Assembly: GCF_023650955.1 (NCBI RefSeq)
Contig: NZ_CP098039.1
Location: forward strand, 372,001 to 436,000
DNA: 64,000 nucleotides
Direction of reading: 5' to 3'
Origin: Thermosynechococcus sp. HN-54
Lineage (GTDB): Bacteria; Cyanobacteriota; Cyanobacteriia; Thermosynechococcales; Thermosynechococcaceae
This document shows, piece by piece, positions 20,312 to 60,754 of the stretch. The notes under the pieces were generated by a model, which was not told where the DNA came from, searched no databases, and saw only the letters and a list, made by a program, of their open reading frames with translations. A program made the position numbers and the translations under genes. Each line of letters starts with the position of its first letter. The stretch's first letter is position 1.

Positions 20312-21112
20312 ATGAATGGTTGGACATCCCTCTTGGCAGTGGCAGTGCCCCTTGTGGTTCAAGCAGCAACCCCAGCCCCGCAGATCATGACGCGGGCGAT
20401 CGCGATCGCTGCCGAGCAGTTTGGTGAGGAACCAGAGCAAATTAGTGTAGTTCAAGTTCAACCCAAGGTTTGGTCTGATGGCTGCTTGGGCTTGGGGGGA
20501 TTGCGGGTGGATTGTGCTGAGCGCTTGACCCCCGGTTGGGAAATTATCCTCACAAATCCCAATGCTCCTTATCCCCAACAGTGGGTCTATCGTACCAATC
20601 AAAATGGCTCGCTCATTCTTTGGGATGCCGCTGGCAGTCAGATGATGGGTACCCTGATTCAGCGACCGCAACGCCTCAGTTCTGAAGAGTTACCGCCCCC
20701 CCTTCCTGAGGGCGTGAGTTTTCGTGTGATTCGGCAAAGTGATGCCTCTGGGAATCGTCCACCCTCAACGACAACGACACTGCTCTATAACGATGGTCGC
20801 ATTGTGCAGCAAACCACCAATGCTCGCGGGGAAACCCTCAGCCGCACCCTGCGCACAGTCACACCTGCTCAAGTCAGTCAATTTAATCAATTGTTGAGCG
20901 ATCGCCGGTTTGACCGCTTCAATGGCTTTGATTTTATACCCACACCCCTAGAGCGAGCAGTGCCTATTCATCTCGTCTCTACCCCCACCGCAACGGTGCG
21001 CTTTGCTGAAGCCAATGAATACCGCCTCGCCTCTGATTTGATTGCTGTTTTGCAGGCATGGGAGCTATTAGTTGCCAAAGGTCAGCTTCCTAGACCGCTT
21101 CCAAAAGGCTGA
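20312..21112 (+). CDS. exported protein of unknown function
   Basis: 266 residues from the ATG at 20312 (a TTG directly before it is also possible). Residues 1-20 form a short hydrophobic leader ending VVQAATPAP, a likely signal peptide. The mature part has DGCLGLGG and CAERLTPGWEI, with two cysteines that could form a disulfide, and a later region with TLLYNDGRIVQQ. This is like a family of cyanobacterial periplasmic proteins of unknown role. The stop codon lies within a few bases of the end of the decayed TnpB element, so the very C-terminus (LPKG) may have been altered by that insertion. Confidence 0.7.
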   Translation: MNGWTSLLAVAVPLVVQAATPAPQIMTRAIAIAAEQFGEEPEQISVVQVQPKVWSDGCLGLGGLRVDCAERLTPGWEIILTNPNAPYPQQWVYRTNQNGSLILWDAAGSQMMGTLIQRPQRLSSEELPPPLPEGVSFRVIRQSDASGNRPPSTTTTLLYNDGRIVQQTTNARGETLSRTLRTVTPAQVSQFNQLLSDRRFDRFNGFDFIPTPLERAVPIHLVSTPTATVRFAEANEYRLASDLIAVLQAWELLVAKGQLPRPLPKG

Positions 21113-21179
21113 ACATTACTGTTCAGTACTGGAACTTGCTGACGCAAGCCTACTGGACTTACCGAGTGGCAAACCACTC
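21111..21179 (-). other. right-end hairpins of the IS605/IS1341-type relic
   Basis: Three perfect small hairpins lie in a row: GAACA/TGTTC with loop TTAC (21111-21124), CTTGC/GCAAG with loop TGAC (21135-21148), and GAGTGG/CCACTC with loop CAAA (21164-21179). They overlap the 3' end of the tnpB relic, exactly where IS605-family right ends and the omegaRNA (reRNA) guide scaffold are located. Being an omegaRNA remnant is an inference from position and structure. Confidence 0.5.
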
Positions 21180-22097
21180 GCACCAGCTTCCTGCTTCTTC
21201 TGCCCATAACTCGTAAACCGCCCTTCGGATACCAGCGATCAACCACCACCAACTCACTACCGTACAACTCACATTTGTAGGTCAGTTGCCGCCTGATCTC
21301 GTACAACCTAATATCGGCAATCGTGCGGGCGAGACGAGGATTCTTCAGCATGCCGCCTACATTCAAGCCCTCAATCACGACCCTGCCGTGGTTCTTGACC
21401 AGATAGCTTGTGAGTTTGTGAAGAGCGTCATTGCGGATGCAAGCAATACGGTAGTGCGTCTTGGCCAGCTGGAGTCGGGTCTTGGCATAATTTTTTATTT
21501 TTTCCTCCTTTGGTTTGACGAGCCAGCTTCCGCTGAAGACGGCGCAAGCGTTTCTGATAGCGGGCAAAGGCTTTGGGATTCTCAAGCCGCTCCCCTGTGG
21601 ACAATACTGCCAACTTGCGACTGCCGACATCTACGCCCACAACGGGGGTTTTCTTGGGGGTGGACTGTGGTTCAATGGTGTAACGAAAGGCAATGAACCA
21701 GCGATGGGCGCGGCAGCTGATGACGACATTCTTGGGGCAGACCGCAGGCAGAGGTTCGTAGCACTTCACCCAGCCGAAAATGGGCAGCTTGATGCGATTG
21801 CCGCTGATGCGGATGTTGCCTTCTAGGTAGAGGTTGCGCAGGGCTTGTTGTGGGGCACATTTGGAAGCATCGTAGTACCAAGGATTTGCCGATTTCACCT
21901 CGGCAACGAGTTTCTTATGCAAGTCAATAGCCGAGGGAAACTGGCGCTTTTCGGTTGGGGCTGCTTGTTGGTTGTGTTCTAGGATGGACTGACACAGGGC
22001 GAGTGCCCAGTTGTAGGCATGACGAGCCATCCCTGCGTCTTGGGCACAAAGGGTGCGTTGTTTTGAGGTCGAGTTCTGTCTTGAAGGAGAGGAACAT
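21116..22097 (-). pseudogene. decayed TnpB (IS605/IS1341-type OrfB)
   Basis: The protein is recognisable as TnpB, the RNA-guided nuclease of IS200/IS605 elements: ARHAYNWALALC at the N-terminus, VVGVDVGSRKLAVLS with the first catalytic Asp, VVIEGLNVGGM with the catalytic Glu, and VDRWYPKG near the end. It is broken. The natural start ATG is probably at 22095-22097, but an extra A around 22055 shifts the frame before QRTLCAQDAG. A second shift near 21490 separates the N-terminal part from AKTRLQLAKTHYRIA. The CxxC zinc ribbon that should follow RWYP is missing. No TnpA gene is nearby. Confidence 0.85.
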
Positions 22098-22207
22098 GGA
22101 GTAGACTGTAACAAAGGACGTGAGGTGAGGTTATTGATTGAGTGATGCACAGTATTGCTTAGTGTTTTTGTTATTAGAGTCAACCTCTTTTCACACAGAA
22201 TAAGATC

Positions 22208-22972
22208 TTAACGGAATACGATGCTAACTTCATCCCAGCGGCCTGACGGCGCAATTGCCTTCAGCTCATCCGCAGACTTAAATTTTCTACCTTTTTGAAT
22301 TTGCTGGATGATTTTTTCAGCTTCTTCCACTTTTAAGCCTAGAACACGCTTGGCAAGATTCTCAGCTTTTTTACAGCGATTGATCGACACAGGCGAATCA
22401 AATTTTGTTTTTTTAGAGACACGCTGCTCCAATTCAGCAAAGTTTGTTTTGAGTTCATCCAATTCCTGAGCAATTTTTTCGAGTTTATCTATAATCAGCT
22501 TAATTTGGTCATTTAAGCTCTTTTGCAATTCGTTAAATAATGTCATAAATGATTGGGAATTGTGATCAATCAAGTTGCTTCTCTCTGATGTCTGTAAATG
22601 AGAGCTACTATTCTGAGAATTTATTTGCAAAATAGACTTCAGTCTTTCTTGGAAGGTTAGAACTTCCTCATCTTCAAGCTCAATTCTTGATGCCCATAGT
22701 TGATTGATGCCCAATTCACGGGCAAACTCAACTACCTCCTTGCCAAAGACAACTTCATACGCTCTGTCGCCTTCTGGTGTAGTAACTGGACGAATAATGA
22801 GGGGGATGAGGTTGGTTTTATATTTATCCAAGTCCTCACGGATCAGTTGTGGTGAAGTACAGAATAAGTCTTTGGGGTAGGTCTCTGGTACTGTCAGATA
22901 ATCAATATGAATCTGACCCTGATGTGTCTGATGTAAGCCGAGGTGCTTTGAGATTCGATTGGAGTGACTCAT
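22208..22972 (-). CDS. ParB-like protein with coiled coil and helix-hairpin-helix
   Basis: 254 residues. Residues about 20-110 look like a ParB N-terminal domain (IHIDYLTVP, LIPLIIRPV, YEVVFGKEVVEFARELGI), but the arginines of the usual GERRxRA box are replaced by GKEVVEFA, so CTP binding is doubtful. No ParB helix-turn-helix domain follows. Instead there is a Ser/Asn-rich linker (115-140), a coiled coil (about 145-185) and a C-terminal helix-hairpin-helix-like region (197-242; LGLKVEEAEKI then FKSADELKAI), which could bind DNA. It starts 3 bases after the nuclease-ParA stop, so the pair forms an operon. A partner of the ParA ATPase is the natural inference. Confidence 0.75.
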   Translation of the reverse strand: MSHSNRISKHLGLHQTHQGQIHIDYLTVPETYPKDLFCTSPQLIREDLDKYKTNLIPLIIRPVTTPEGDRAYEVVFGKEVVEFARELGINQLWASRIELEDEEVLTFQERLKSILQINSQNSSSHLQTSERSNLIDHNSQSFMTLFNELQKSLNDQIKLIIDKLEKIAQELDELKTNFAELEQRVSKKTKFDSPVSINRCKKAENLAKRVLGLKVEEAEKIIQQIQKGRKFKSADELKAIAPSGRWDEVSIVFR

Positions 22973-22975
22973 ACT

Positions 22976-24322
22976 CTATGATGCTTGACTAGAAAGATAG
23001 CGAGCTAAATTTTCAAATGAAGTCGTTAAATCATCAATGGATTCTTTATCTGATCGATCTAATTCTTCATAAAACTTTCTACTGAATATCGGTTGCTGAG
23101 ACTCTGTGGCTCGCAACATCACAACTCGGTGTGCAATCCATGTTGATTCGGGCAAAATTTGCACTGTCTGTCTTCCATTAGCTGCTTTTTCAAGAATATT
23201 CGACAACTTCTCTTTCATCTCATAGTTAGCTGCCGATGTTCTACGATCATACATACTCACAGCGATTCCAAGGGGTCGAGGCGGAGTTTCCATGGCATCC
23301 CTCATGGCCTCAAGGCGGGCTAAAACGTACTCTATTGCCCGTATAGGATAGGGGGCAAATTGTGTCGGTATCAGTACTCCATCAGACGCCATCAAAGCAA
23401 TGGCATTGACTTTACCAAAGGCGGGTGGTGGATCAATCAGCACAATGTCATAGCCATGATTTTTGAGTTTTCGTTGTAATACCCGATCAATATCAATTGT
23501 GCTGATGAGTGCGGGTTCCTTATCGGCTAGGCGAATGTGGGCGGGAACAATGTCAAGATGCAGGTTGCCCCAAGCTCTTTGATAAACTACCTCTTCTAGG
23601 CCAACCCTTGGCTCTAGCAATAGGTCAGCAATATCCTTCTTGCCTTGCTCTTCTACATCTTTAAGGGGGTTAATGCCAACGCCAATAGTTAAGTTAGACT
23701 GTGGGTCAATATCAATCAAGAGAACTCGCTTGCCCATCGTGGCAAAGGCAGCACCAAGATTGAGGGTTAGCGTCGTTTTACCAACGCCACCCTTGTGATT
23801 GAAAATAGTAATGATCATGGGTGACTCCTTAGAAGCGGTTGAGGAGATAGAAAAACTCTTTGCAAGTGCCTTTTCAAAATAATGATAGACTTTGAGCCTT
23901 TGCTGGGTTAAGGCAGTCACTAGAGCAGCGGCTACGGAGCGGTGTAAAATTTTAGTCAGTTTCTGAATAGTTTGTTTATCGAGGATACCTGAAGCACATG
24001 TCACCTGCTGAAGTGGTTCTCTAAGGGGATTTTGATATAAAAGTTGGTATTCTCGGCCATTGGTAAGTAAGCCAAACACAGCCTGAGCTGCTTCCATGTA
24101 GTGCCTCAATTGCTGGCCACCTGTCAGTCGGGACTGCGCTGGGGTTTTGACCTCAATGATCAGATAGTTCAGGGGGCGATCGCCCGTCATCGCTAAGGTC
24201 ACCAAAAAATCAGGGTAGCCGTTTCCAATCCGAGGTTTCGCCTGATACTCAGAAGACTGATAGCCCCACTGCTTGAGCAACGGTAGGATAATTTTGTGTT
24301 CCGTATTTGCTTCATTAGCCAT
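22976..24322 (-). CDS. PD-(D/E)xK nuclease domain fused to a ParA ATPase
   Basis: 448 residues in two modules. Residues 1-130 resemble the HsdR N-terminal/RecB-like nuclease fold: PD at 37-38, ExK at Glu57-Lys59 in IIEVKTP, and a QLRHY motif at 71-75, so the catalytic set looks complete. After a linker, residues 169-448 are a ParA/MinD-type ATPase with KGGVGKTT (177-184), the Walker A' segment LLIDIDPQSN (201-210) and DIVLIDPPPAFG. ParA proteins position DNA or protein cargo. Joining one to a nuclease is unusual. The ParA part begins at a Met with its own strong ribosome-binding site (23824-23830), so a short form may also be made. The downstream ParB-like gene is coupled. Restriction, plasmid-type partition or defence are all possible. 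Confidence 0.8.
   Translation of the reverse strand: MANEANTEHKIILPLLKQWGYQSSEYQAKPRIGNGYPDFLVTLAMTGDRPLNYLIIEVKTPAQSRLTGGQQLRHYMEAAQAVFGLLTNGREYQLLYQNPLREPLQQVTCASGILDKQTIQKLTKILHRSVAAALVTALTQQRLKVYHYFEKALAKSFSISSTASKESPMIITIFNHKGGVGKTTLTLNLGAAFATMGKRVLLIDIDPQSNLTIGVGINPLKDVEEQGKKDIADLLLEPRVGLEEVVYQRAWGNLHLDIVPAHIRLADKEPALISTIDIDRVLQRKLKNHGYDIVLIDPPPAFGKVNAIALMASDGVLIPTQFAPYPIRAIEYVLARLEAMRDAMETPPRPLGIAVSMYDRRTSAANYEMKEKLSNILEKAANGRQTVQILPESTWIAHRVVMLRATESQQPIFSRKFYEELDRSDKESIDDLTTSFENLARYLSSQAS
23816..23830 (-). promoter_or_regulatory. internal ribosome-binding site and start codon for a free ParA
   Basis: On the minus strand AAGGAGT (23824-23830) is followed after five bases by ATG (23816-23818), in frame with the fusion gene at codon 169. 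The ATG is the place where an ordinary ParA would begin (MIITIFNHKGGVGK). Either the locus makes both fusion and free ParA, or two genes were joined recently and this is the old start. Confidence 0.6.
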
Positions 24323-24510
24323 GGGAAGCTGCTATGCAGGGAGCGCGCTTAGAAACACATTCAACAAAATTATCGTTGACAAAAATAAGCAATTCAATTT
24401 GTTAACAAATATTTGTAATATAATAAGCGCATGGTCATTCTCTCTTAAGCCAAGCGTGCTAGCCAGTCTGGCATTTCCCGCTCCAGTATATTTTTGGGGG
24501 TTTGAAGCAT
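24323..24510 (-). promoter_or_regulatory. AT-rich leader of the nuclease-ParA operon with two overlapping palindromes
   Basis: This stretch upstream of the fusion gene is AT-rich and carries no gene. At 24399-24416 two perfect palindromes overlap: TTGTTAACAA (24399-24408) and ACAAATATTTGT (24405-24416). They lie 77-94 bases upstream of the start codon, a place suited to an operator or to a parS-like site for the encoded ParA/ParB-like pair. Regulation by these sites is an inference. Confidence 0.5.
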
Positions 24511-24568: not shown

Positions 24569-24895
24569 TCAACCGCTGAGCATAGTTAAGGAAACGCTAA
24601 AGAAATCAGGGTCTTGGCAACTGCGGTCAATGTCTTGATCTAGTTCGTATTGCTGGATGATGTTATCGCAGCAGAGCAGCTTATTCCCATGTCCAAGTAG
24701 TGCCCCGACTATACCAGATTCGCCATTGTGCAGACTGAGGAATTCTTTGAAGCAGGGGGGCAGTGATAGGTCAATAGCAGACTCCACTCTGGCAATTTCA
24801 GCAGCACTAGCGGGTGGATTCAGTCCTTCTAGGACGTTTGGCGCATGGTTTCTCATCCAGTCAAGGCTGATCGCTAAGCGCTCATGAATGCTCAT
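24569..24895 (-). CDS. SMI1/KNR4 (SUKH) family protein, C-terminally truncated
   Basis: 108 residues. The SUKH pattern is seen in PPASAAEIARVESAIDLSLPPCFKEFLSLHNGE, shown here in shortened sense: an ASAAEI helix, LPPCFKEFL and HNGE. SUKH proteins are often immunity proteins against contact-dependent or polymorphic toxins. The family usually runs to 130-180 residues; here the sequence breaks off after about 95 and ends in an unrelated tail FFSVSLTMLSG, so the gene may be non-functional. A GGGAG lies about 9 bases before the ATG. No toxin gene is adjacent. Confidence 0.65.
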   Translation of the reverse strand: MSIHERLAISLDWMRNHAPNVLEGLNPPASAAEIARVESAIDLSLPPCFKEFLSLHNGESGIVGALLGHGNKLLCCDNIIQQYELDQDIDRSCQDPDFFSVSLTMLSG

Positions 24896-40931: not shown

Positions 40932-42101
40932 TTATTGGAAGGCCACCTGCACCAATGAAACATCATCGCTGCCAAAGGCATTGACTGCTGCATGGCTCTG
41001 CACTTGGCGAATCAACTGGGGCAATGCGGGAACAGGTTCTTGGGCGTGAGCCGCAATGAGCAACTCCTTAAAGGCGTCGAGTCCCCAAATGCGATTCTCA
41101 GTGGTTTCAAACTCGTAGATGCCATCGCTAAAAAGATAGAGAACCGCCGGGTCGGGCACTTCAATCGTGACTTCGCTAAAGACCATGTCAGCAAACATGC
41201 CAATGGGAATGCCCGGTGTCTTCAGGGAGGTCGCTTGCCATTGATCAGCCGCACAGGTGAGCAGCAGGGCAGGGGGATGCCCGCCACTGGCATAGGTCAA
41301 CTGCCGCCTCTGGCGATCGTACACGCCGTACCAAATCGTGAAATACTTTTCGTGCTGATCCATCATTTGAAAGCCATTGTTGAGGGCTTCAAGGACTTGG
41401 GCAGGGTGCAGATAGTCAAACGTACCGCTCGTTTGCTCTCGCGTGGTACTGCGCAGGAGGTTCAAGACGGAGACCGAAGGTAGAGCAGCGCCCAAGCCAT
41501 GGCCTGAAACATCGAGAATATAGAGCACTAGATAGCGATCGCCCATCCAGAAAAAGTCAAAGCAATCGCCGCCCAACTGACTCGACGGCAAGAAGTAGTA
41601 GTTGATTTTGCAGGGAGTGTCTTGGGGCGCAGGCAGGAGCGATCGCACATAGGCCGCTGCTTCGTGGAGTTCCGCTTCAAGGAGTTGTTTTTGCTTAAGC
41701 AAGTCTTGGTTGAGTTGGTACAGGCGCAAACCCGCTTGAATCCGTGCCCGTAGTTCATTGGGGTCAATGGGCTTTGACAAAAATTCATCGGCACCGGCAT
41801 CTAACCCCTGAATGCGATCCTCTAACTCCCCCTTGGCAGTGAGCAGGACAAAAAAACTGCGGGAGAGTTCCTGATCCTGTTTGATTTGGCGGCACACCTC
41901 TAGGCCGTCCAGTTCGGGCATCATCCAGTCACAGATGATCAGCGCCGGTTTTTCGACGGTGGCGATCGCGATCCCCTCGCGACCATGGCTAGCAACCGAT
42001 ACCTGATAACCCAAATCCTTCAGCGTTTTCCGCAGCAAGAGTCGGGTGGTGGGATCATCATCAATAACGAGAATTCGATAGGGCTGGCGATCGCCACTCA
42101 T
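40932..42101 (-). CDS. response regulator - PP2C phosphatase (RsbU-like)
   Basis: 389 residues. The receiver domain (about 8-125) has the phospho-acceptor Asp58 in ICDWMMPELDG, the acidic pair IDDDP and the conserved KPID lysine. A coiled segment (130-155) connects to a PP2C-type phosphatase (about 180-385): GDCFDFFWMG, ILDVSGHGLGAAL with metal-binding Asp and Gly, and GSDDVSLV. Such proteins dephosphorylate STAS antagonists in partner-switching and are controlled by phosphorylation of the receiver. The HATPase protein at 3.9 kb is a possible counter-acting kinase, but the two are far apart. Confidence 0.9.
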   Translation of the reverse strand: MSGDRQPYRILVIDDDPTTRLLLRKTLKDLGYQVSVASHGREGIAIATVEKPALIICDWMMPELDGLEVCRQIKQDQELSRSFFVLLTAKGELEDRIQGLDAGADEFLSKPIDPNELRARIQAGLRLYQLNQDLLKQKQLLEAELHEAAAYVRSLLPAPQDTPCKINYYFLPSSQLGGDCFDFFWMGDRYLVLYILDVSGHGLGAALPSVSVLNLLRSTTREQTSGTFDYLHPAQVLEALNNGFQMMDQHEKYFTIWYGVYDRQRRQLTYASGGHPPALLLTCAADQWQATSLKTPGIPIGMFADMVFSEVTIEVPDPAVLYLFSDGIYEFETTENRIWGLDAFKELLIAAHAQEPVPALPQLIRQVQSHAAVNAFGSDDVSLVQVAFQ

Positions 42102-42148
42102 AGCCTCAGCCTGAGAAATCTCCCCCTAGTGTATCCCAAGGCTCTTGG

Positions 42149-43285
42149 CTATTTTTGTGTTTGTCTGGGATCAAGGGCATCCCGCAGGCCATCGCCGACA
42201 ATATTGAAACACAGCACAGTCAGGACAATTAATGTGGCCGGTGCCCAGACCAACCACGGCTGCAAGACCAAAATCGAAGCATTGGTTGCCAAAGAGAGCA
42301 TATTGCCCCAAGAGGGATCCGGCTGCTGGATTCCCAAGCCAATCAGACTGAGTACCGATTCCGCGACAATAAAGCTGGGAATGGAGAGGGTCGCGGCAAT
42401 AATTACATAAGTCGCCGTCTGGGGAATAATGTGCCGCACAATAATGTAGAGCGATCGCCCCCCCATTACCTGCGCCGCTTGGACAAAAGCCATTTCTTTG
42501 ATCCCCAGCACCTGACCGCGAATCACCCGTGCTACCCCCGCCCAACTCACAAACGATGTGATCACGGTAATTAGCAAAAATCGCTCGCCACTACTGAGTC
42601 CGACTGGGAGTACCGCCCCCAAGGCCACCAGCAGATAGATGGTCGGCAGCGTCATCAGCACCTCAACACCCCGCATCAAAACTGCATCGAGCCAGCCGCC
42701 AAAGTAGCCAGAAATCGCCCCCACGAGAATACCAATCGGGAAGGCGATCGCGACCCCCACAAGGCCAATACTGAGGCTAATGCGGGCACCAAAGAGCAGC
42801 CGGCTCAACTGATCGCGTCCTTGGTCATCCGTTCCCAACAGATTCAGATAGCCCTTGCCCACCGTACCAAAGAGATGGCGATCGCTGGGGAACCCCGCAA
42901 AAATGGTACGCGGTTCAATTTGCGGATTGCTGAGACTCCAGCGGGTCGGTAGGGGCAGCGTAATTTCTAAGAAGCGATAGGGGCTGCCCTTAACAAAGAG
43001 GCGAATCGGCGACGGTTCCTGCCAGTCCACCATCAGAGGACGTTCCCCTGTTTCCAAGTTCACAGGCCCCAAGCGGGTGGGATAGACATGGGGACCTAGC
43101 CACTGACCATCGGGCGTGCGCCAGTAAATCCGGGTGGGGGGCAGCAGGGCACCATCCACTTGAAAGGTATAGGGACTATAGGGGGCAATAAAATCTGCGG
43201 CGATCGCCAGCAGGTACAACGTCAGCAACACCCCCAAACTAACCATCACTAAGGGGTTGCGCCGCAACGTTTGCCAAGGGGTCAT
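42149..43285 (-). CDS. oligopeptide/dipeptide ABC permease (OppC/DppC type)
   Basis: 378 residues. A first membrane span (14-33) is followed by an extended periplasmic region of about 140 residues carrying the LLGTDDQGRDQLSRLLFGARISL motif in part (GTDDQGRD), then five spans with the EAA-type cytoplasmic loop (AAQVMGGRSLYIIVRHIIPQ). It is the second permease of an importer for peptides or nickel chelates. No ATPase, binding protein or OppB gene lies next to it. It is divergent from the original start of the disrupted cyAbrB gene. Confidence 0.88.
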   Translation of the reverse strand: MTPWQTLRRNPLVMVSLGVLLTLYLLAIAADFIAPYSPYTFQVDGALLPPTRIYWRTPDGQWLGPHVYPTRLGPVNLETGERPLMVDWQEPSPIRLFVKGSPYRFLEITLPLPTRWSLSNPQIEPRTIFAGFPSDRHLFGTVGKGYLNLLGTDDQGRDQLSRLLFGARISLSIGLVGVAIAFPIGILVGAISGYFGGWLDAVLMRGVEVLMTLPTIYLLVALGAVLPVGLSSGERFLLITVITSFVSWAGVARVIRGQVLGIKEMAFVQAAQVMGGRSLYIIVRHIIPQTATYVIIAATLSIPSFIVAESVLSLIGLGIQQPDPSWGNMLSLATNASILVLQPWLVWAPATLIVLTVLCFNIVGDGLRDALDPRQTQK

Positions 43286-43722
43286 TCGTCACTCATCCGC
43301 TAGGGTACAGCCACTATACAGCCTTTTTTCTATCCTAGGGCTGCTCTGACAGACTGAATGCCTACACGTATTCCGCGCTTCTAGAGAGGGACGGTGCTGT
43401 AGATAAATTTGACCCAAAAATCAATCAGTGATAAATAAAACTTAACAAAGTAACACGAAATCACTTTTTCTGTTAAATAGATTCGGTATCACTATATGAT
43501 TATATTGATTATGATTATATTGATTGCTTCAAACTAACATATTGTTAAAAATAATACTTTGTGTTTCAAATAAAGTGGTAGCTTGATTAAATCTAATGAT
43601 TTCTACTCAGATCATTCTCGCAGACACCCTTTTTCTCTCTAGTGTGGGTACCTGTTGATTAAAGAACAATTTAGTTGCTTTATTCATTTGAATAGCGTTC
43701 TGATAGAGGAAATATAGAGCGA
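43286..43722 (+). promoter_or_regulatory. AT-rich intergenic region with the original cyAbrB promoter
   Basis: About 440 bases without a convincing gene between the OppC-type gene (minus) and the ATG left from the cyAbrB gene (43723). It should hold the promoters of both. It contains a 15-bp tandem duplication at 43496-43525 and several AT-rich segments. I see no clear sigma-70 core that I would trust. Any small frame across the IS boundary is not real. Confidence 0.5.
43496..43525. repeat. 15-bp tandem duplication
   Basis: ATGATTATATTGATT is repeated twice without mismatch (43496-43510 and 43511-43525) in the region upstream of the disrupted cyAbrB. Probably slippage; it could alter promoter spacing. 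Confidence 0.85.
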
Positions 43723-43731
43723 ATGGAAAAA

Positions 43732-43740
43732 CCAAAGCCC
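43732..43740. repeat. left copy of the 9-bp target-site duplication
   Basis: CCAAAGCCC directly before the left end of the IS; the identical copy follows the right end at 44830-44838. These are codons of the cyAbrB gene. Confidence 0.92.
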
Positions 43741-43775
43741 CAGAAGTGTTGAATTCTGCAACAAAACTTAACATC

Positions 43776-44738
43776 CTAAGTGACAAGTAGCTCTGGCTGC
43801 CAATCAAAGCTCCAATGCACTATCGAGCAGCGGCGACTCAGTTCCAGTTGCAAATATCGCAATTTGTCTAATAGCTTCCTGCCAAAGTATTCAGGTATCT
43901 CCATTAGCTCTAAAATTAAGTACCCAATCAAAACCATATAAATCTGATTTATCACCCCATTCAAACTCTTCGTAATCAGCTTGTCTAATGATAAATGCAT
44001 CTTTAGAAACTTCCATAAGTTCTCAATCCCCCACCGATGCCGATACAGCTCACTCACTTCCTCATCACTTAGATGCATTAGATTCGTCGCAATACGAAAC
44101 TCTGTTCCATGCTCATCAAAAAATTGAACCACTCGGTATCTCTCATGATTGAGCTTCATTCTCATGTTATTCTTGATACGCACAACAAATAAACACTTCC
44201 TCTCACTCAGCCGCTCTAAAAATCTCCAACTCGCAAACCCTCTATCCATGATGGCAACGGCATTCTCAGGGATCATTTCTAAAATCTCGTCTTGAAAGCT
44301 TAGGTCATGTCTCTCCCCAAAAGAGACTACTGCCTTACCCAGGATGTTCTCTGTTAAATCAAATCCTGTAATTAACTTCACTTGATGGTATTTGTAGAAC
44401 CAAAAGAGCTTACTCGTCAGGGTAATGACGGTTGAATCAATAGGAAACAGCATCAGACTTGAACAACGATGTCTCTTGCGAGCTTGAGACATGAGATGAG
44501 TGTAAATCCTCTCAAATAAGGTGGTTGTTCGAGTTTTGTTCGCCTTGGAAAACGTGGACATATCCACTGTAATCCCCGAATGATTCAAGCGATAAAATAA
44601 GGCTCTCATGCTGGTTAATCCTTGGTCGAGAATGTAGGTCAACCAGATTTTGAAGAACAATTGAGAGTTGAGGACGGGGTAGTCGCAAGGGCTGAGCTGC
44701 TTGAGAATAGACTTGACAAGAACTGAAAAAGATGCCAT
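43776..44738 (-). CDS. IS4-type DDE transposase
   Basis: 320 residues from the ATG at 44736-44738; a longer frame starts at 44783 but MASFSVLVKSILKQ is the more natural N-terminus. The DDE residues can be placed: Asp in PIDSTVITL, Asp in AIMDRGFASW and Glu in the Y(2)R(3)E(6)K signature, seen as YRHRWGIENLWKFLK. This signature defines the IS4 family. The frame is full length and uninterrupted. It is transcribed towards the OppC-type gene, away from the cyAbrB body. Confidence 0.9.
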   Translation of the reverse strand: MASFSVLVKSILKQLSPCDYPVLNSQLFFKIWLTYILDQGLTSMRALFYRLNHSGITVDMSTFSKANKTRTTTLFERIYTHLMSQARKRHRCSSLMLFPIDSTVITLTSKLFWFYKYHQVKLITGFDLTENILGKAVVSFGERHDLSFQDEILEMIPENAVAIMDRGFASWRFLERLSERKCLFVVRIKNNMRMKLNHERYRVVQFFDEHGTEFRIATNLMHLSDEEVSELYRHRWGIENLWKFLKMHLSLDKLITKSLNGVINQIYMVLIGYLILELMEIPEYFGRKLLDKLRYLQLELSRRCSIVHWSFDWQPELLVT

Positions 44739-44767
44739 AGTAAGCTGATTAATTTTTCTTCTTTTGA

Positions 44768-44797
44768 GGGAAGAATACGACATTTCTTCCCTTTTTT
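44768..44797 (+). terminator. hairpin with T-run at the IS right end
   Basis: GGGAAGAA (44768-44775) pairs with TTCTTCCC (44784-44791), loop of eight bases, followed by six T. Reading on the plus strand this is an intrinsic terminator placed just before the cyAbrB body, so transcripts from the old cyAbrB promoter that cross the IS would probably stop here. On the other strand it lies 5' of the transposase gene and may protect it from outside transcription. Confidence 0.6.
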
Positions 44798-44829
44798 CTA
44801 GCCTCTTAAACTATCTTTCAACACTTCTG

Positions 44830-44838
44830 CCAAAGCCC
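44830..44838. repeat. right copy of the 9-bp target-site duplication
   Basis: CCAAAGCCC directly after the right inverted repeat of the IS, identical to 43732-43740, and followed by codons CTA ACT GGT of the cyAbrB gene. Confidence 0.92.
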
Positions 44839-45202
44839 CTAACTGGTAAAGCACTCTTGCAGCGATTAAGTGAACTAGGTTCTGCATCCCGTAAAGAAGC
44901 CGCAAAGCTCTGTGGTTACTATCGCGTCACAAAATCCGGTGAGGTGCGTGTCAACTTAGGGAAATTTTACGAAGCGGTACTTGCTGCCGGTGGACTAGAA
45001 GTCCAGTCATCGGAAAAAGAAGTCAATGCTCAATCAGGACGGGGGCGATCGCCCTCCTATCGGGTGAAGGTGCACCAAAATGGTCAGATTGTCATTGGTG
45101 CTGCCTATACCAAAGCAATGAACTTGAAGCCGGGGGACACGTTTAAAATCAAGCAGGGGTATAAACATATTCATCTCTACTTGATTGATTCTGACGAGAG
45201 GA

Positions 45203-45958
45203 ATGGCACCGCCGCAGAATGATCAATGGTTAGCACTGATTGTCGGCAATAGTCGGCAGCACTGGGCGTTATTTAGGGGTGAACACTTAAGCCGCACTTG
45301 GCACCTCCCCCCTGAGGGATTTGCCTTCAACCCTGCCCAAGAGTATTCAAGACTGCCCTGTTGGGGGGCGAGTGTCGGTTCTGTGCCCTTGCACCATGTT
45401 CATCCGACAGCAATTGAACTCACCCTAGGGGATATTCCCATTCCCCAGATGTATCCCACCTTGGGGATTGACCGTGCCCTTGCCCTCTGGGGGGCGCTTC
45501 AGGTCTATGGTGCACCCGTGTGTGTTGTTGATGCAGGCACCGCACTGACGTTTACCTTAGCCAATGCCCAAGGGGAATTTGCGGGAGGTGTGATTCTGCC
45601 GGGGGTCGGATCAATGGCGCGGGCGCTAGCGGACTATACGGCGGCTTTACCCTGTGTTGCCCTGCCCCCAAACCCACCTCACCGCTGGGGCAACACCACC
45701 GCTACGGCCATTGAAAGTGGCCTCTACTACGGCACTGCGGCAATCCTACAGAGCTATCTGGGGGCATTTTTGCAGGACTACCCCCAAGGCACGGTGGTTG
45801 TCACCGGGGGCGATCGCCCCTTCATCAGTGAGCTGTTGCGGACATTTTTAGACCCCGATCGCTGGCGTGAAGACGATCATTTGGTTTTTTGGGGGATCCG
45901 CGCCCTCCGCAACCCAACCGCTAAGATAGAAATGCACCCAGTAAACAGGATTAACTAA
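45203..45958 (+). CDS. coaX: type III pantothenate kinase
   Basis: 251 residues from the ATG at 45203, which follows a GAGAGGA site and overlaps the last 20 bases of cyAbrB. It phosphorylates pantothenate, the first step of coenzyme A synthesis. The phosphate-binding VGNSRQHW at the N-terminus, DAGTALTF (near residue 100) and TGGDRPF near the C-terminus are the three family motifs. A longer start at 45185 is in frame but lacks a ribosome-binding site. Since it was probably translated from the cyAbrB transcript, the IS could also reduce its expression. Confidence 0.9.
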   Translation: MAPPQNDQWLALIVGNSRQHWALFRGEHLSRTWHLPPEGFAFNPAQEYSRLPCWGASVGSVPLHHVHPTAIELTLGDIPIPQMYPTLGIDRALALWGALQVYGAPVCVVDAGTALTFTLANAQGEFAGGVILPGVGSMARALADYTAALPCVALPPNPPHRWGNTTATAIESGLYYGTAAILQSYLGAFLQDYPQGTVVVTGGDRPFISELLRTFLDPDRWREDDHLVFWGIRALRNPTAKIEMHPVNRIN

Positions 45959-45966
45959 TTCCAGCA

Positions 45967-46728
45967 ATGGAGCGGCCTCATGACTTTAGGGATTTGGCCT
46001 TGGGGCTAGTCTCAGCCCAGAGTTTTCCGGCGATCGTTGGCATTGCCGATCACATGCTCAAATCCTCCGATGTCCTCCTAGTGGGCTATGAAAAAATTGG
46101 CAGTGGCCACTGTACCGCGATCGTGCGCGGGCGAATTGCTGATGTGCGTCTGGCTGTGGAAGAGGGCGCTGAACGGGCGCAGCAGTTTGGTCAAGAACTC
46201 AGTACACTGGTGATTCCCCGACCTGACCCCAACCTAGAGAAAATTCTTCCTATTGGCAGTCTCCTCGCCCAGATTGCCTCTAAAAGTCGCGGCCATCGCC
46301 TCAGTAGCCACGCAGTTGGCCTATTGGAAACCCGAGGATTTCCAGCTATGGTGGGGGCAGCGGATGCCATGCTCAAGGCGGCAGATGTGATGCTGACAGC
46401 CTACGAAACCATTGGCGCCGGTTTGTGTACGGCCATTATTCGTGGCACGGCCTCCAATACCGCGATCGCCCTTGAGGCCGGGATGGCAGAAGCCGATCGC
46501 ATTGGCGAACTCCATGCAGTGATGTTGGTACCCCGTCCCCTTGAGGATTTGGATCAATCGTTGCCCTTGGCACCCGCCCTACAACGGGAACTGCAACCCC
46601 TGCGCCTACCCCTTACCCTCAAGCAAAAAGACACCGAACCCCTTGCCCTCCAAGGCGCAGCTCAAGAAAGTGTGGCTGTGGAAGCTCCTGCCGAAACGGT
46701 GCCCGTTGAACCCTCTGCCAATCCCTGA
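45967..46728 (+). CDS. ccmO: carboxysome shell protein CcmO (two BMC domains)
   Basis: 253 residues with two tandem bacterial microcompartment domains: about 10-90 (ALGLVSAQSFPAIVGIADHM, VGYEKIGSGHCTAIVRG) and about 113-195 (AVGLLETRGFPAMVGAADAM, TAYETIGAGLCTAIIRG), then a Pro/Glu-rich tail of about 50 residues. Tandem-BMC trimers form part of the beta-carboxysome shell around Rubisco; CcmO is often encoded away from ccmKLMN, as here. It starts 8 bases after coaX. Its last 67 bases overlap the convergent flavoprotein gene. Confidence 0.93.
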   Translation: MERPHDFRDLALGLVSAQSFPAIVGIADHMLKSSDVLLVGYEKIGSGHCTAIVRGRIADVRLAVEEGAERAQQFGQELSTLVIPRPDPNLEKILPIGSLLAQIASKSRGHRLSSHAVGLLETRGFPAMVGAADAMLKAADVMLTAYETIGAGLCTAIIRGTASNTAIALEAGMAEADRIGELHAVMLVPRPLEDLDQSLPLAPALQRELQPLRLPLTLKQKDTEPLALQGAAQESVAVEAPAETVPVEPSANP

Positions 46729-52543: not shown

Positions 52544-53224
52544 ATGAAAATTCTCATTGTTGAAGATGATCCCCGCATTGCAGCACCTTTGGCGAAGGAT
52601 TTACGACATCAACACCACACTGTTGATATTGCCGAGGATGGCCTGAGTGGCTGGGACTATGCCCAAGCAACTGCCTATGACCTCATTTTGCTGGACTTAA
52701 TGCTACCCCGCCTAGATGGCATCACCCTTTGTCAACGGTTGCGGGCGGTAGGTTGTCAGGCGCTGATTTTGATGTTGACGGCCAAGGATACAACCACTGA
52801 TAAAGTCATTGGCCTAGATGCAGGTGCTGATGATTACCTTGTCAAACCCTTCAAGTTGGAAGAACTGGCGGCACGGATTCGGGCACTGCAACGCCGCAGT
52901 CGTGAACTGAAACCCCCTGTGCTGTGTTACGGGGCACTGCAACTGGATCCGGCGAGTCAGATGGTGACGTACGATCAAACGGTACTCTCCCTTACCCCCA
53001 AGGAATATCTACTCCTAGAGCATTTTCTGCGGCATCCGGGGCAGGTCTTTAGTCGCACAGTCCTCCTAGACAAACTCTGGGCATTTGACCAAGAGGCTGG
53101 TGAAGGCACCGTCAAAACCCACATCACCAATCTGCGGCATAAGCTCAAGGCAGCAGGTTGCTCCCAAGAACTGATTGAAACGGTCTATGGTGTTGGCTAT
53201 CGTTTTGTGCCCCCCCATGTCTAG
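52544..53224 (+). CDS. OmpR/PhoB-family response regulator
   Basis: 226 residues. Receiver with Asp51 as phospho-acceptor (LILLDLMLPRLDG), acidic pair EDD and conserved KPF lysine; a winged-helix DNA-binding domain (about 125-225, ending GVGYRFV). The sensor kinase gene overlaps its stop by 8 bases, so they form a pair, similar to RppA/RppB and NrsR/NrsS of other cyanobacteria, which respond to redox or metals. Two matching PhoB-like direct repeats in promoters at 56.6 and 60.0 kb are candidate targets. Confidence 0.9.
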   Translation: MKILIVEDDPRIAAPLAKDLRHQHHTVDIAEDGLSGWDYAQATAYDLILLDLMLPRLDGITLCQRLRAVGCQALILMLTAKDTTTDKVIGLDAGADDYLVKPFKLEELAARIRALQRRSRELKPPVLCYGALQLDPASQMVTYDQTVLSLTPKEYLLLEHFLRHPGQVFSRTVLLDKLWAFDQEAGEGTVKTHITNLRHKLKAAGCSQELIETVYGVGYRFVPPHV

Positions 53225-54464
53225 CCCAATGTTTACCCATATTCGCCGCCGCTTACTGTTCTTTAATCTCCTCGTGTTTGCAGTCGTCCTTGGGGGTTTT
53301 GCGATCGCTGTCCGCATGGTCTTTGTTCACAATCTCAGGGAGCAACTCACCAATCGTCTCATTGCCGTTGCCCAAGGCGCTGCTGCTAATGTTGATATTG
53401 AGAATGGTCAGCTCAAGATTGAGGAGCACGGTTTGCCCCATGAGCTAAAAAAGCAAGCAGAAACCTTAGAATGGTTTGATGCCCACGGCCGACTTCTCAA
53501 GCAACAGGGCGAAGCACTTCCCTACATCCCACTCAATCCAAAGCTTACAGTAGCTATTCACACCCATGATCCCCCCTTACAGTTAGTCACACTGCCAATT
53601 TTGCGCGAGGAAACCAAGGAAATCATTGGCTACATCCGCATTAGTCAAGAATTGGATGAATTTAATGAGACTATTTGGCAATTCGATACTGGTCTCATTG
53701 TCGGGGTGATTACAGGCATCCTCCTCAGTGCTGTTGGTAGTCTGTGGCTCAATCGCCAAGCCATGCAGCCTATTGAAGCAAGTTTTGAGCGGTTGCGACA
53801 GTTTACGGCCGATGCCTCCCATGAGCTCCGCAGTCCCCTGATGGCCATTTCCAGTAATACTGAAGTCGCCCTCAAGTACGATGAAGGAATGCGACCAGAG
53901 GATCGAGAAGTCCTAGGGGCGATCGCCAGTGCCACAGATCAAATGACCCGCCTCATTGACGACTTGTTGATTCTGGCAAGAACTGATCGTCAACAGCCAA
54001 TGACCATGCGGACGATCAACCTCTCAGAGACCTTGGCACAATTAATTCAACTCTATAAACCACAGGCACAGCAACAGCAAATTAGCCTAGAGTTTAGTAC
54101 CGATCCTCAACTACTGCTGCGGGGCGACGAAGCGGCCCTCATACGGGCTTTCACCAACCTTTTACAAAATGCGCTGCGCTACACTTCTGAAGGGGGCAAA
54201 GTGAGTGTGACTGCCAAGCGGCTCATGCACTATATTCAAGTGACTATCGCTGATACGGGCATTGGTATTGCGCCTGAGCACCTCAGTAAAATTTTTGAGC
54301 GCTTTTGGCGAGCAGATCCCTCCCGTCACTATGTGGATGGGGGAGCAGGGTTAGGCCTATCCATTGTCCAAGCAGTTGTTCAGAGCCATGGCGGCAGCAT
54401 TGATGTCAAGAGTCAAGTGGGTCAGGGAACCTCATTTACCGTCAGGCTTCCCCTCAGTCATTAA
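53217..54464 (+). CDS. sensor histidine kinase
   Basis: 415 residues from the ATG at 53217, overlapping the response-regulator stop by 8 bases. A first membrane span (about 15-33), a periplasmic sensor region of about 120 residues, a second span (about 160-180), then HisKA with the phospho-acceptor in DASHELRSPL and a HATPase with N-box NLLQNALRY, G1 DTGIGI and G2 GAGLGLSIV. The periplasmic part has His residues (THDPP) that could bind a metal. Pair resembles RppB/NrsS; the stimulus is unknown. Confidence 0.9.
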   Translation: MSSPMFTHIRRRLLFFNLLVFAVVLGGFAIAVRMVFVHNLREQLTNRLIAVAQGAAANVDIENGQLKIEEHGLPHELKKQAETLEWFDAHGRLLKQQGEALPYIPLNPKLTVAIHTHDPPLQLVTLPILREETKEIIGYIRISQELDEFNETIWQFDTGLIVGVITGILLSAVGSLWLNRQAMQPIEASFERLRQFTADASHELRSPLMAISSNTEVALKYDEGMRPEDREVLGAIASATDQMTRLIDDLLILARTDRQQPMTMRTINLSETLAQLIQLYKPQAQQQQISLEFSTDPQLLLRGDEAALIRAFTNLLQNALRYTSEGGKVSVTAKRLMHYIQVTIADTGIGIAPEHLSKIFERFWRADPSRHYVDGGAGLGLSIVQAVVQSHGGSIDVKSQVGQGTSFTVRLPLSH

Positions 54465-55093
54465 CTTATTTGATATTTGATAAAGGTGATCACCCCATCC
54501 GCAATGAGCTGTACAGCGATCGCTAAAATCAAAAAGCCCAAAATCCGATTCAGTGCCCCTATGCCTGTTGTTCCTAAGCCCTTAATCAAAGGCTCCCCTA
54601 GAATTAAGCAAAAGTAGGTGATAAAGCTAAACAGGGTAATTCCCAGAACACAACCAAGATACTCTGGCCATTGATGGCAGCGGGTTGAAAAACCAATTAC
54701 AATACCAATCGCCCCCGGCCCACTAATGATGGGCATTGCCATAGGTGTAAAGGAAATATCCTCTTTGTCCACTGCCTCCAGTTGCTCTTGATTGCTAAGA
54801 CGCGGTTGAGGAGTAACCATCTGCCAAGCTGTATGAGCCACAATTAATCCACCAGCAATTCGCACCACTGCTAGGGAAATTCCAAAAAAGCTGAGAATAA
54901 ACTTGCCCACTAAGAAAAAAATTGTTAAGACAGCAAAAACATTAAAGGTAATTTTTCGTGCTTGTCGCAGGCGATATTTCGCAGTATTTTTAGCAGTCAA
55001 ACTATAGAAAATAGGAATGGCTCCAATTGGATTTGCAATGGGAAAGAGAGCTGTCAATATGCCAAACATGAAAGAAAAGAGGGTGTTGACCAT
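54461..55093 (-). CDS. MarC-family membrane protein
   Basis: 210 residues, six membrane spans. NPIGAIPIFYSLT at the N-terminus and PMAMPIISGPGAIGIVIGFS near residue 120 are hallmarks of the MarC family. Despite the name it is not shown to give multidrug resistance; function unknown. Its 3' end overlaps the sensor kinase by 4 bases. Confidence 0.88.
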   Translation of the reverse strand: MVNTLFSFMFGILTALFPIANPIGAIPIFYSLTAKNTAKYRLRQARKITFNVFAVLTIFFLVGKFILSFFGISLAVVRIAGGLIVAHTAWQMVTPQPRLSNQEQLEAVDKEDISFTPMAMPIISGPGAIGIVIGFSTRCHQWPEYLGCVLGITLFSFITYFCLILGEPLIKGLGTTGIGALNRILGFLILAIAVQLIADGVITFIKYQIS

Positions 55094-55421
55094 AATTGGT
55101 ACTGCTCAATTGAAGCTACATACAACCCTTTTTACATATGGAACAAGCTCAAAACTGCGAAAGCCCCTATGAGACAGTATGACATCCCCTTTACGGATTC
55201 CATATTGCTAATATCAGGACTGTAGTCAGTGGTACGAACAGAAGTTAATGACGGACTCACCCGTGGAGCCAAAGAAGGGTTTCAATGCTCCGGAAGATGT
55301 AACTATCTTATGTTTGAGTCTAACAGGCTTGGTGTGACACATGATCAGCCGACAGCACATTCAACTGGTCTCACTTTTGGAATTGGGCGTATATTGGGAG
55401 TATCCTTTGGGGGGTAAAAAG
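55094..55421. promoter_or_regulatory. intergenic region with a 17-bp element shared with 56686-56702
   Basis: About 330 bases between MarC (minus) and the HEAT gene (plus), with no convincing gene. CTCAAAACTGCGAAAGC (55148-55164) recurs with one change at 56686-56702; the similarity extends over about 45 bases (TTTTTACATA before, CTAT after). Here it lies about 260 bases upstream of the HEAT gene and about 60 bases upstream of MarC. Confidence 0.5.
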
Positions 55422-55829
55422 ATGGATCACGCCTATTTTTGTCCAGCATGTTTTGCGGAGATTGCTGCGAACGACTTAATCTGTCCTGTATGTGGTGTCA
55501 ACATTCACCAGTGGGAACAGGAGCATCCCTCCTATGAAGATCGACTGATCAATGCCCTGAAGCATCCCAACTCTGAAGCACGCATGGGTTCAATTATTAC
55601 CCTTGGCAATCGTGGTAATCCCAAAGCAGCCATTCCCCTTGCTGAATGTGCTCTAACCTACTCCATTGACGTTTGGCAAGCCATGGAAATTGTCCGAGCC
55701 CTAAGAAAGCTACCTGACTCTCCTGAGAAAACCACAGCCTTGCAAATGTTATTGGATCATCCTGCCCGAGTCATTCGTGAAGAAGCGGCGGCCACTCTAA
55801 CTCAAGTCACCCATGAAACATATTTCTAA
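55422..55829 (+). CDS. zinc-ribbon HEAT-repeat protein
   Basis: 135 residues from the ATG at 55422 (GGGGGG upstream; a longer start at 55341 is less natural). Four cysteines in FCPACFAE and CPVCGVN form a zinc ribbon, then two or three HEAT-type helical repeats follow (PNSEARMGSIITLGNRG, HPARVIREEAAATL). HEAT proteins often act as adaptors or lyase-like factors in phycobilisome biology; this one is too short to be a bilin lyase. The frame continues open after the stop codon, see next entry. Confidence 0.7.
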   Translation: MDHAYFCPACFAEIAANDLICPVCGVNIHQWEQEHPSYEDRLINALKHPNSEARMGSIITLGNRGNPKAAIPLAECALTYSIDVWQAMEIVRALRKLPDSPEKTTALQMLLDHPARVIREEAAATLTQVTHETYF

Positions 55830-55973
55830 TGGATTGGCGTTCCCCTTGAAGTGACTATTAGTGGTCTGCGCAGTATGGCGATCGCCCTTAGTTTTGCGCG
55901 CCGACTTCCCAGTCTTCGCCAAATCGTGAAAATGACCCATCCAGAACTCTTTTCACCACAAACCCATCCTTAG
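55830..55973 (+). pseudogene. coding-type remnant in frame after the HEAT gene stop
   Basis: After the TAA at 55827-55829 the same frame stays open for 47 codons to a TAG at 55971-55973. The translation (IGVPLEVTISGLRSMAIALS, then FARRLPSLRQIVKM) looks like real protein and includes a GCGATCGC site as coding regions here often do. It may be the lost C-terminal part of the HEAT gene or a fragment of another gene. Readthrough is not supported by anything visible. Confidence 0.35.
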
Positions 55974-55975
55974 GC

Positions 55976-56016
55976 AAAAAATTAGGGTAGATATTTGTGC
56001 CTGTTAATCTACCCTA
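55976..56016 (-). terminator. intrinsic terminator of the PepSY gene
   Basis: TAGGGTAGAT (55983-55992) and ATCTACCCTA (56007-56016) form a perfect 10-bp stem with a 14-base loop. On the minus strand the stem is followed by ATTTTTT, about 60-100 bases after the PepSY stop codon. Confidence 0.85.
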
Positions 56017-56073
56017 GACAGCTTGGCAATTTCAGTAAAATTTAGAGAACCATAAGGATGGTTACCATTATTG

Positions 56074-56532
56074 CTATGGACGATCAGAATTGGGCACTTG
56101 GATACTGCCACCCAAGGGGGCTTCATGGAGGTCATTTTCCTCTTGACCCGCTAGCTCCGTTTTGAGGATATGCCCATTACCGGCATCCACCTTGACTTCA
56201 GCATTGGGAAAGCGCACTTCATAAACCAAGCTACCGTTTTCTGCCCCTAGGGCAACCCGTATCGCCTTCTGGCCTTGAGCGGCTTCTGCGATTTGCTGAG
56301 CTTGTTGGGGACTAATTTTAGCAAGGCTACGGTATTGGGCTTCGTCTTGCATTTCCTCAGCCGTATTTTTCGCTTCGTAGCGATCGCTCTCGTCATACCC
56401 ACCCTTTTGATCCGTTTGTGCTGCGAGAGCATAACTAATGTGTCGTTGTGGCTTGAATGCCATTGCCCCACCACCAATAGCCACCGTTCCAAGTAGTCCC
56501 AAAGCGAGTATTGTCCTAGTGAAGGTCTTCAT
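56074..56532 (-). CDS. exported PepSY-domain protein
   Basis: 152 residues from the ATG at 56530-56532; a longer frame exists but the signal peptide MKTFTRTILALGLLG starts here. After the leader (cleavage after about residue 25) the mature part has a linker and a PepSY domain (about 70-140: ISPQQAQQIAEAAQG, VYEVRFPNAEVKVDAGNG). PepSY domains may inhibit peptidases or act in metal and stress responses. The TCAAGA direct repeat 65 bases upstream (56597-56615) suggests PhoB-type regulation. It has a good terminator. Confidence 0.8.
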   Translation of the reverse strand: MKTFTRTILALGLLGTVAIGGGAMAFKPQRHISYALAAQTDQKGGYDESDRYEAKNTAEEMQDEAQYRSLAKISPQQAQQIAEAAQGQKAIRVALGAENGSLVYEVRFPNAEVKVDAGNGHILKTELAGQEENDLHEAPLGGSIQVPNSDRP

Positions 56533-56596
56533 AGCTCTTGTCTCCAGTAAATTCGACTGTCCCCTTAGGGAGCTATCCTTAAAGTAAGGTACTATC

Positions 56597-56615
56597 GTCA
56601 AGAAAGCGTCAAGAT
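56597..56615 (-). promoter_or_regulatory. PhoB-type direct repeat upstream of PepSY
   Basis: GTCAAGAAAGCGTCAAGAT; on the minus strand two TTGAC half sites with an 11-base period, 65 bases before the PepSY start. The same layout stands before the small exported gene at 59641-59904. About 10 bases downstream of the repeat (minus strand) is a possible -10, TACTTT. Class II activator architecture as in pho boxes is inferred. Confidence 0.55.
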
Positions 56616-56685
56616 GATTCGTTCATTTACAATTAACTGAAAACTTATGTTTAGACAAAGCTTTTTTCACATAGATAGAATATAC

Positions 56686-56702
56686 TCAAAACTGTGAAAG
56701 CT
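56686..56702. repeat. second copy of the 17-bp shared element
   Basis: CTCAAAACTGTGAAAGC, 16 of 17 bases as at 55148-55164. Upstream TTTTTTCACATA and downstream TTCTATAA also resemble that locus. The role is unknown; it is 237 bases before the esterase gene. Confidence 0.45.
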
Positions 56703-56938
56703 TCTATAAAAGAGAGTTGCATTTGCTTTGTATGATCTAGATTTTAGAAAATGGCTGTATTAACGAGTTCTTGACATTTGTTTGCTTTTCTATTGATAAT
56801 CAAGTAGAGACCTTTTTGCGAAGATGCAATACACTCAAATACAGTCAAATTTTTGTAGAACAGGTCACATAAACCTTAAGTACTCCATATTTCAGGAGAA
56901 GTCTACAAATACAAATGATTCCATCACTCTAACCAGTT

Positions 56939-57859: not shown

Positions 57860-57894
57860 GTAGTCTATCAATCTATTGATGAGGAGTATTCACT

Positions 57895-59577: not shown

Positions 59578-59640
59578 CAAAAAGGGGCGAGGGAGAAATC
59601 CCCTCGAGTCCCCTGCGAGGAGCAATGAGTTAGGACGAAT

Positions 59641-59904: not shown

Positions 59905-59976
59905 CGTTGTTTTAACTCCGTTGAACCTGACTTTGATGCTCTGTTGTAGAGCCAACCTTCAAGGTAGGGGAGAATT

Positions 59977-60210: not shown

Positions 60211-60230
60211 ATCTGTGGAGGAATAGGCGG

Positions 60231-60740: not shown

Positions 60741-60754
60741 TCCAATAGCCAAAA

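Follow-up and report, generated by a model that had tools for sequence, protein, structure and literature searches.

A cyanobacterial two-gene module pairing a predicted PD-(D/E)xK nuclease-ParA fusion with a ParB-like partner

Two adjacent genes of Thermosynechococcus sp. HN-54, whose genome (G000) is one contig of 2.7 Mb, encode a predicted nuclease fused to a ParA ATPase and a protein with a ParB N-terminal domain. Both lie on the minus strand of the 64,000-nucleotide stretch that was analysed (hereafter the window). The fusion gene occupies 22976..24322 and encodes 448 amino acids (P0001). The partner gene is located 3 bp downstream at 22208..22972 and encodes 254 amino acids (P0002). The reading frame, Pfam matches and an AlphaFold2 model indicated that the nuclease-ParA fusion and its ParB-N partner are real, and a search for conserved pairs, which the preliminary description had proposed, revealed that the two genes are kept together in many genomes. 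Among open-licence PMC papers, searched by title and the start of the abstract, no description of a nuclease-ParA fusion was found. Tentatively, and with a chance that we put somewhat below even, we regard the pair as a self-contained ATP-gated DNA nuclease that is steered by a ParB-like adaptor and serves in replicon control.

The ParA part of the fusion (residues 166-448, window 22979..23827, minus strand) was assigned to AAA_31 with an E-value of 1.3e-40. It has a complete deviant Walker A motif, KGGVGKTT, at residues 177-184, so the intact ParA that had been read in one frame with nuclease motifs was recovered. The fusion model was built from 35 sequences and had a mean pLDDT of 87.8. In a structure comparison, its ParA part matched Soj with a Z-score of 33.8 (rmsd 1.8, 251 aligned), and McdA was also among the fold matches (Z 30.5).

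Residues 1-130 (window 23933..24322, minus strand) were assigned to an HsdR_N-type PD-(D/E)xK domain from Pfam matches in relatives, residue conservation and the model. In P0001 itself, HSDR_N_2 scored 21.6 bits, just under the Pfam cut-off of 25, and P0003 scored over the curated cut-off for a domain of the HsdR_N type. Among 42 homologous domains, HSDR_N_2 was matched by all 42 at E ≤ 0.01; the HsdR_N families PF13588 and PF04313 were matched by 42 and 40, respectively. The motifs first noticed in the letters, P37-D38, E57-V58-K59 and Q71-L-R-H-Y75, stand at exactly these positions of the translation (codons of D38 at 24209-24211, of E57 at 24152-24154 and of K59 at 24146-24148, minus strand). 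The last of them resembles the QxxxY-type motif, which presumably has a role in HsdR_N domains. The predicted elements are a helix (4-18), two strands (39-43 and 51-58), a helix (69-79) and two further strands (83-87 and 91-97); D38 and E57/K59 are carried by strands and QLRHY by a helix. This is what we take to be the element order of the PD-(D/E)xK core, and not the lack of a nuclease fold that the preliminary description had named as a reason to abandon its reading. A structure search with the whole fusion returned lists of solved structures (PDB) that were filled by ParA. For this reason the predicted nuclease fold rests on Pfam and the element order, and weakly on a viral model in BFVD, where a phage protein whose name refers to the HsdR N-domain ranked third with an E-value of 2.5e-5 but a TM-score of 0.22. 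A PDB sequence search with the nuclease domain gave no significant match, the best being BpuSI (E 0.056).

In an alignment of 105 fusions from four clades (the first 83 sequences are distinct; identity among the other 22 was left unchecked), E57, K59 and the Walker A lysine K182 were present in all 105, K177 in 104, and D38 in each of the 104 that had a letter there, one having a gap. Y75 was retained in 99 and Q71 in 78, with R or K in 23 and G in four. At the level of sequence, this showed that the putative catalytic residues of the fused domain are under constraint. A catalytically silent fold that merely holds DNA would accord with the Pfam score of P0001 below the cut-off and with the absence of the domain from part of clade II, but we consider it very improbable, given metal-site residues conserved in 105 fusions of four clades.

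The partner model (mean pLDDT 83.8) consists of a ParB-N domain that runs into a long helix (132-188) and then a small C-terminal domain (192-254). Residues 16-118 (window 22619..22927, minus strand) matched ParB 7bm8 with a Z-score of 12.7 (rmsd 2.5, 97 aligned), and a pNOB8-like ParB-N was also among the fold matches. The GERRxR arginines at residues 79, 80 and 82, which we take to belong to the ParB CTP motif, were absent in all 36 aligned partners. HTH_ParB was detected neither in P0002 nor among the best 25 of the 28 Pfam families for these 36 partners. A ParB-type N-terminus without the arginine box and without the ParB helix-turn-helix was just what had been described beforehand. The HhH-like end, also described then (window 22211..22399, minus strand), was weak in the sequence of P0002, where HHH_3 scored 17.9 bits against a cut-off of 27, and clear in seven of the 36 partners (E ≤ 0.01, best 8e-12). 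In structure it resembled the XcpX end (Z 7.8, below what the search tool trusts; rmsd 2.0, 59 aligned). At E ≤ 0.01, the 36 partners matched ParB_N in 19 cases, Rho_N in 13, HHH_3 in seven, and HeH and SAP in two each; HhH, SAP, HeH and Rho_N are nucleic-acid-binding folds. From this spread, it seems that the ParB-N core was retained and the DNA-binding end exchanged (HhH, Rho_N, SAP/HeH). A profile of the clade I partners aligned with that of the clade III/IV partners across the ParB-N core, over 72 columns (probability 98.1, E 7.7e-14). At one locus of Kamptonema (L109:6689-8915), a single fusion is followed by two tandem partner-like genes.

A 14-bp perfect palindrome, ATTTGTTAACAAAT (window 24397..24410, no strand assigned), touches the -35 element of a sigma-70-like promoter, TTGAAT-17-GATAAT (window 24369..24397, minus strand). 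Five promoter-like sites were found against 4.7 expected by chance, so the promoter call is weak by itself. In the genome, the palindrome occurs exactly once, with two further sites that differ by a single base; one relative keeps it perfect, and three others show one or two mismatches. It is likely an operator, or else a single site, and does not look like a parS array; no such array was found in the genome.

The module lies within an AT-rich patch (42-47% GC versus about 53%), and the TnpB and SUKH relics that had been reported with the patch were both found at the site, outside the module. The TnpB relic (IS605 OrfB, in two frames) is at about 21097..22189 (minus strand, ends approximate) and is an insertion absent from the site in G006, G009 and G001, the relatives aligned across it. 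Upstream is a truncated SUKH (SMI1_KNR4) gene (window 24569..24895, minus strand), whose counterpart upstream of the module in G004 is longer, with 247 amino acids. The window has two more AT-rich patches, at 42001-46000 and 53001-61000 (about 41-49% GC versus about 54%).

Comparison with members of the genus placed the site between window positions 21096 and 24961. The module is at the same site in G006 and G009 by both flanks; for G004 and G007 this placement comes from the right flank. In G003, about 136 bp stand in its place, and G001 has a decayed partner piece; the intact modules of G001, G003 and G005 are located elsewhere in their genomes. In G008, G005, G010 and G002, the right flank alone aligned, and the module version of G010 is 46% identical. 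In clade I, the partner is adjacent to the fusion at 32 of 34 loci. The exceptions are L063, which has no partner, and L083, which ends at its contig; within the 32 paired loci, the partner is broken at L085 and the fusion at L088. Decayed copies were seen in G014 (L129) and G326 (L088). Clustering of the neighbouring genes at 41 genome-scan loci gave the fusion at 41 and the partner at 39, followed by ABC ATPases at 13 and a kinase-type cluster at 11. At 21 clade III loci, the count likewise dropped from 21 for the fusion and 18 for the partner to four for the next gene, and no third recurrent gene emerged from either set. Clade I is patchy, moves and decays, and has no other recurrent neighbour.

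A separate divergent ParA, with frames of about 295-405 amino acids, lies within about 4 kb at 11 clade I loci (L106, L111, L114, L116, L120, L122, L123, L124, L128, L071 and L079). The idea that it is McdA found no support by sequence: one of these proteins matched 13 solved structures at E ≤ 1e-10, and no McdA chain was among them. At L088:5774-11152 (G326), there is a 524-aa ParA-type frame about 2 kb away from the broken copy of clade I; its position identifies it as a clade II match.

Beyond the genus, the pair is not the local oddity that it first appeared to be. Four clades of the two-gene module were found. The union of the clades placed the fusion in up to 167 of 388 sampled genomes of the class, an upper figure, as some copies counted at E ≤ 1e-60 and E ≤ 1e-25 are partial or broken. 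Of the 388, 50 had clade I or part of clade II (E ≤ 1e-60), and 104 had clade III, which was found from a Nostoc plasmid (E ≤ 1e-25). Searching with the nuclease-less ParA of this genome, we found clade II in 87 (E ≤ 1e-35). Clade IV was seen on plasmids. A ParA tree with 58 rows resolved clades I, III and IV as one group apiece, with starred support. Clade II was also a single group apart from the ParA without nuclease in this genome, which a 100/100 branch placed with it. The partner was present at all 30 sampled clade II loci and at 18 of the 21 clade III loci, being missing in G000, G002 and G012. Clade III occurs in all 11 sampled genomes of the genus, with no adjacent partner in the two of them that were inspected. 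The present genome has such a second fusion at C1:1021179-1022492 (L190:8647-10038), with no adjacent partner and with three similar small coiled-coil-type genes after it.

The module has so far been found only in cyanobacteria, where it is widespread and not a one-off. Of the 41 genome-scan loci, 36 were cyanobacterial (34 full-length fusions, L131, cut by its contig, and L129, broken) and five were non-cyanobacterial with an unfused ParA of about 250-260 amino acids; the scan used two short clade I patterns, so it says little on absence outside cyanobacteria. In four non-cyanobacterial genomes, none of the 28 matches began before model position 141. For the phylum to which one of these genomes belongs, none of 201 reached E ≤ 1e-60, with no positive control there. 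The nuclease domain had no match in 50,697 phage records and the clade III partner was not found in phage records, six of which had ParA-only pieces. Three scans of viral contigs gave a single unfused ParA.

The presence of clade III in 11 of 11 sampled genomes of one genus, together with partner ends whose HhH, SAP, HeH and Rho_N folds bind nucleic acids, might point to a machine that repairs or processes DNA in polyploid cyanobacteria, in which the HhH/SAP ends would detect damaged or branched DNA for the nuclease to trim. We think this unlikely, as no repair gene recurs beside the module and clade I is patchy and decaying.

In clade II, the nuclease domain is not constant. Among 89 matches, 61 had long frames, 22 short and six unclear. 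On a tree, the nuclease-less state required five label changes, at least three of them forced by starred branches and their direction not fixed; one of the 13 bare rows in this count (L228) is cut by its contig. It appears that ParA and the partner persisted through repeated losses or gains of the nuclease. This genome contains one such pair at C1:1939792-1941558 (L218:1501-3267), a nuclease-less ParA with a ParB_N partner whose end is HhH-like. The partner is the only place in this genome where ParB_N exceeds the Pfam cut-off. A reading of this locus, at 1.94 Mb, as a canonical ParAB was wrong, since it is a nuclease-less clade II pair and its partner ends HhH-like.

The homologues are mostly chromosomal, and not always on plasmids as plain partition loci, the finding that the preliminary description had said would count against it. 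Plasmids with the module comprised three of Nostoc, two of Pseudanabaena and L. boryana pLBA. For P0001, a clade I relative and a clade II fusion, none of the 5000 best plasmid records per query reached 80% coverage, and P0002 matched no plasmid record. The three Nostoc plasmids (L159, L211 and L212), all from Nostoc sp. UHCC 0870, each have a different version of the module and also carry separate partition genes. The 12.6-kb plasmid ABRG53g carries the module, and no further partition gene is annotated among its 18 features, in a gene table that is incomplete.

Given the nuclease-less pairs, one of them in this genome, and the plasmid copies, a role in DNA maintenance or of a partition-like kind competes seriously with replicon control. 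It is possible, if rather doubtful, that the module is a partition-like or DNA-positioning system, in which ParA and a ParB-N adaptor bound to DNA by its non-HTH end would move or space DNA, and to which the nuclease would be an accessory that, for example, trims or frees tangled DNA. This main rival could draw on clade II, where ParA and partner occur without the nuclease, on the sole ParB_N above the cut-off in this genome belonging to the nuclease-less pair, on ABRG53g with its incomplete table, and on the pNOB8 ParB, which in the review PMC9178275 provides a precedent for a ParB-N with a non-HTH end. However, no helix-turn-helix, GERR arginines or parS array were found, the three Nostoc plasmids have partition genes of their own, the nuclease residues are very well conserved wherever the domain is present, and clade I copies are patchy and decaying.

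An addiction-type or selfish module, in which the nuclease would harm cells or DNA that lose the module and the partner would restrain the nuclease, seems quite improbable. The unit is compact, with two genes, it relocates within the genus, and three plasmids of one Nostoc strain carry different versions. However, a fusion without an adjacent partner occurs at L063 and in clade III of G000, G002 and G012, a state that a toxin deprived of its sole antitoxin would not permit.

The preliminary description had raised the possibility of a defence island, and the neighbourhood did not bear this out. Defence families were no richer among the 105 nearest genes at 56 loci than among 91 control genes more than 5 kb away. 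The best-represented family occurred in at most three of the 105 and at most two of the 91, among the best 25 of 56 and the best 25 of 65 families, respectively. Near genes matched a type II methyltransferase model, a restriction-enzyme model, ShosA, mads_6 and PD-T4-6 singly and mads_2 in two; control genes matched methyltransferases, DrmMII and, in two, mads_3. Restriction-type genes thus occurred singly in both sets. Four near-duplicate loci were skipped, genes longer than 1200 amino acids or cut by an end were excluded, and 4 of 109 near genes and 1 of 92 far genes were dropped before the scan. As near and control genes share their 20-kb stretches, the comparison would lose power if the island were very large. 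PADLOC 2023 models gave partial matches only, the best being the candidate PDC-M28B (3.5e-10; residues 105-253 against model positions 69-209 of 438). No methyltransferase or other self/non-self part recurred beside the module at the 41 and 21 loci. We also considered whether plasmids are depleted where the module occurs. ParB_N was present in 36 of 50 genomes with a match to clade I or part of clade II and in 174 of 338 without, which is no depletion; this comparison says little, as ParB_N can also match the partner of the module itself and genome size was uncontrolled. A plain defence role is disfavoured because of the lack of defence enrichment, the nuclease turnover in clade II, the presence of clade III in 11 of 11 genomes of the genus and the plasmid copies.

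Replicon control is favoured by the conservation of E57 and K59 (105/105), D38 (104/104) and K182 (105/105), by the conserved pairing, and by patchiness and decay. The points that weigh against plain defence, the lack of a recurrent self/non-self part and the clade III fusions without an adjacent partner count against it. ATP-bound ParA dimerises on DNA, and ParB N-termini trigger ATP hydrolysis; a double-strand break by PD-(D/E)xK enzymes usually requires two sites. In the replicon-control reading, ATP-bound ParA dimers on DNA would bring two nuclease domains together. The partner would be held on DNA by its HhH/Rho_N/SAP end instead of at a parS site, and its N-terminal stretch may contact ParA. 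It would then recruit the ParA dimer to certain DNA, or reset the dimer through ATP hydrolysis. The use might be the cutting of invading, unpaired or mis-segregated plasmid or phage DNA, and the module would be an accessory trait that is gained, moved and lost in cyanobacteria. A precedent for a chromosomal ParA that evicts plasmids is ParI of Pseudomonas putida, an ATPase of ParA type that is encoded on a genomic island and makes plasmids unstable, according to the review PMC9178275. A wider reading, which we offer as a possibility well short of an even chance, is that of an ATP-gated nuclease family spread over cyanobacteria, in which ParA/ParB-like machinery had its centromere reader replaced by HhH, Rho_N or SAP ends and would cut according to the state of the DNA (incoming, unpaired or mis-segregated) and not its sequence. 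Partition would thus have been turned into a weapon of replicon control.

If the nuclease is active, partition and DNA destruction would be linked in one protein, and the module would point to a few genes whose part in plasmid stability and transformability could be tested directly in cyanobacteria. How chromosomes segregate in these bacteria is poorly understood, and in 178 of the 388 sampled genomes ParB_N found no match at E ≤ 1e-5. Natural versions without the nuclease, one of which is in this genome, are a ready-made comparison.

Among known systems, McdAB, which positions carboxysomes, shares a cyanobacterial ParA-type ATPase with the module, as the McdA fold match indicated. It differs in having another partner, which we take to be McdB, and no nuclease. 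ParI, by its description, shares the ParA-type ATPase, but the review PMC9178275 describes it as an orphan ParA. The archaeal ParA/ParB/AspA system of pNOB8 is similar in joining a ParB-N to a non-HTH DNA-binding end (review PMC9178275), and also by the fold matches. Its C-terminal end is CENP-A-like, whereas that of the module is HhH, Rho_N or SAP, and pNOB8 has no nuclease. With type I restriction, the module has in common the HsdR_N profile match (PF13588/PF04313), the D and E-x-K residues and the QxxxY-type motif. However, ParA stands in place of the SF2 translocase and no HsdM or HsdS recurs beside the module; lacking both, it is by its predicted composition not a type I restriction system. 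ParABS, in the form of Soj/Spo0J and plasmid relatives, shares the ParA domain, the fold of the ParB N-domain and the two-gene operon. Of the marks of ParABS, the deviant Walker A is present and the helix-turn-helix and GERRxR are missing; the module also has a nuclease fused to its ParA, and no parS array was found for it. The preliminary description was right that the unit is unlike ordinary partition. As judged from its genes, the module works with ParABS-like parts and stands outside ParABS.
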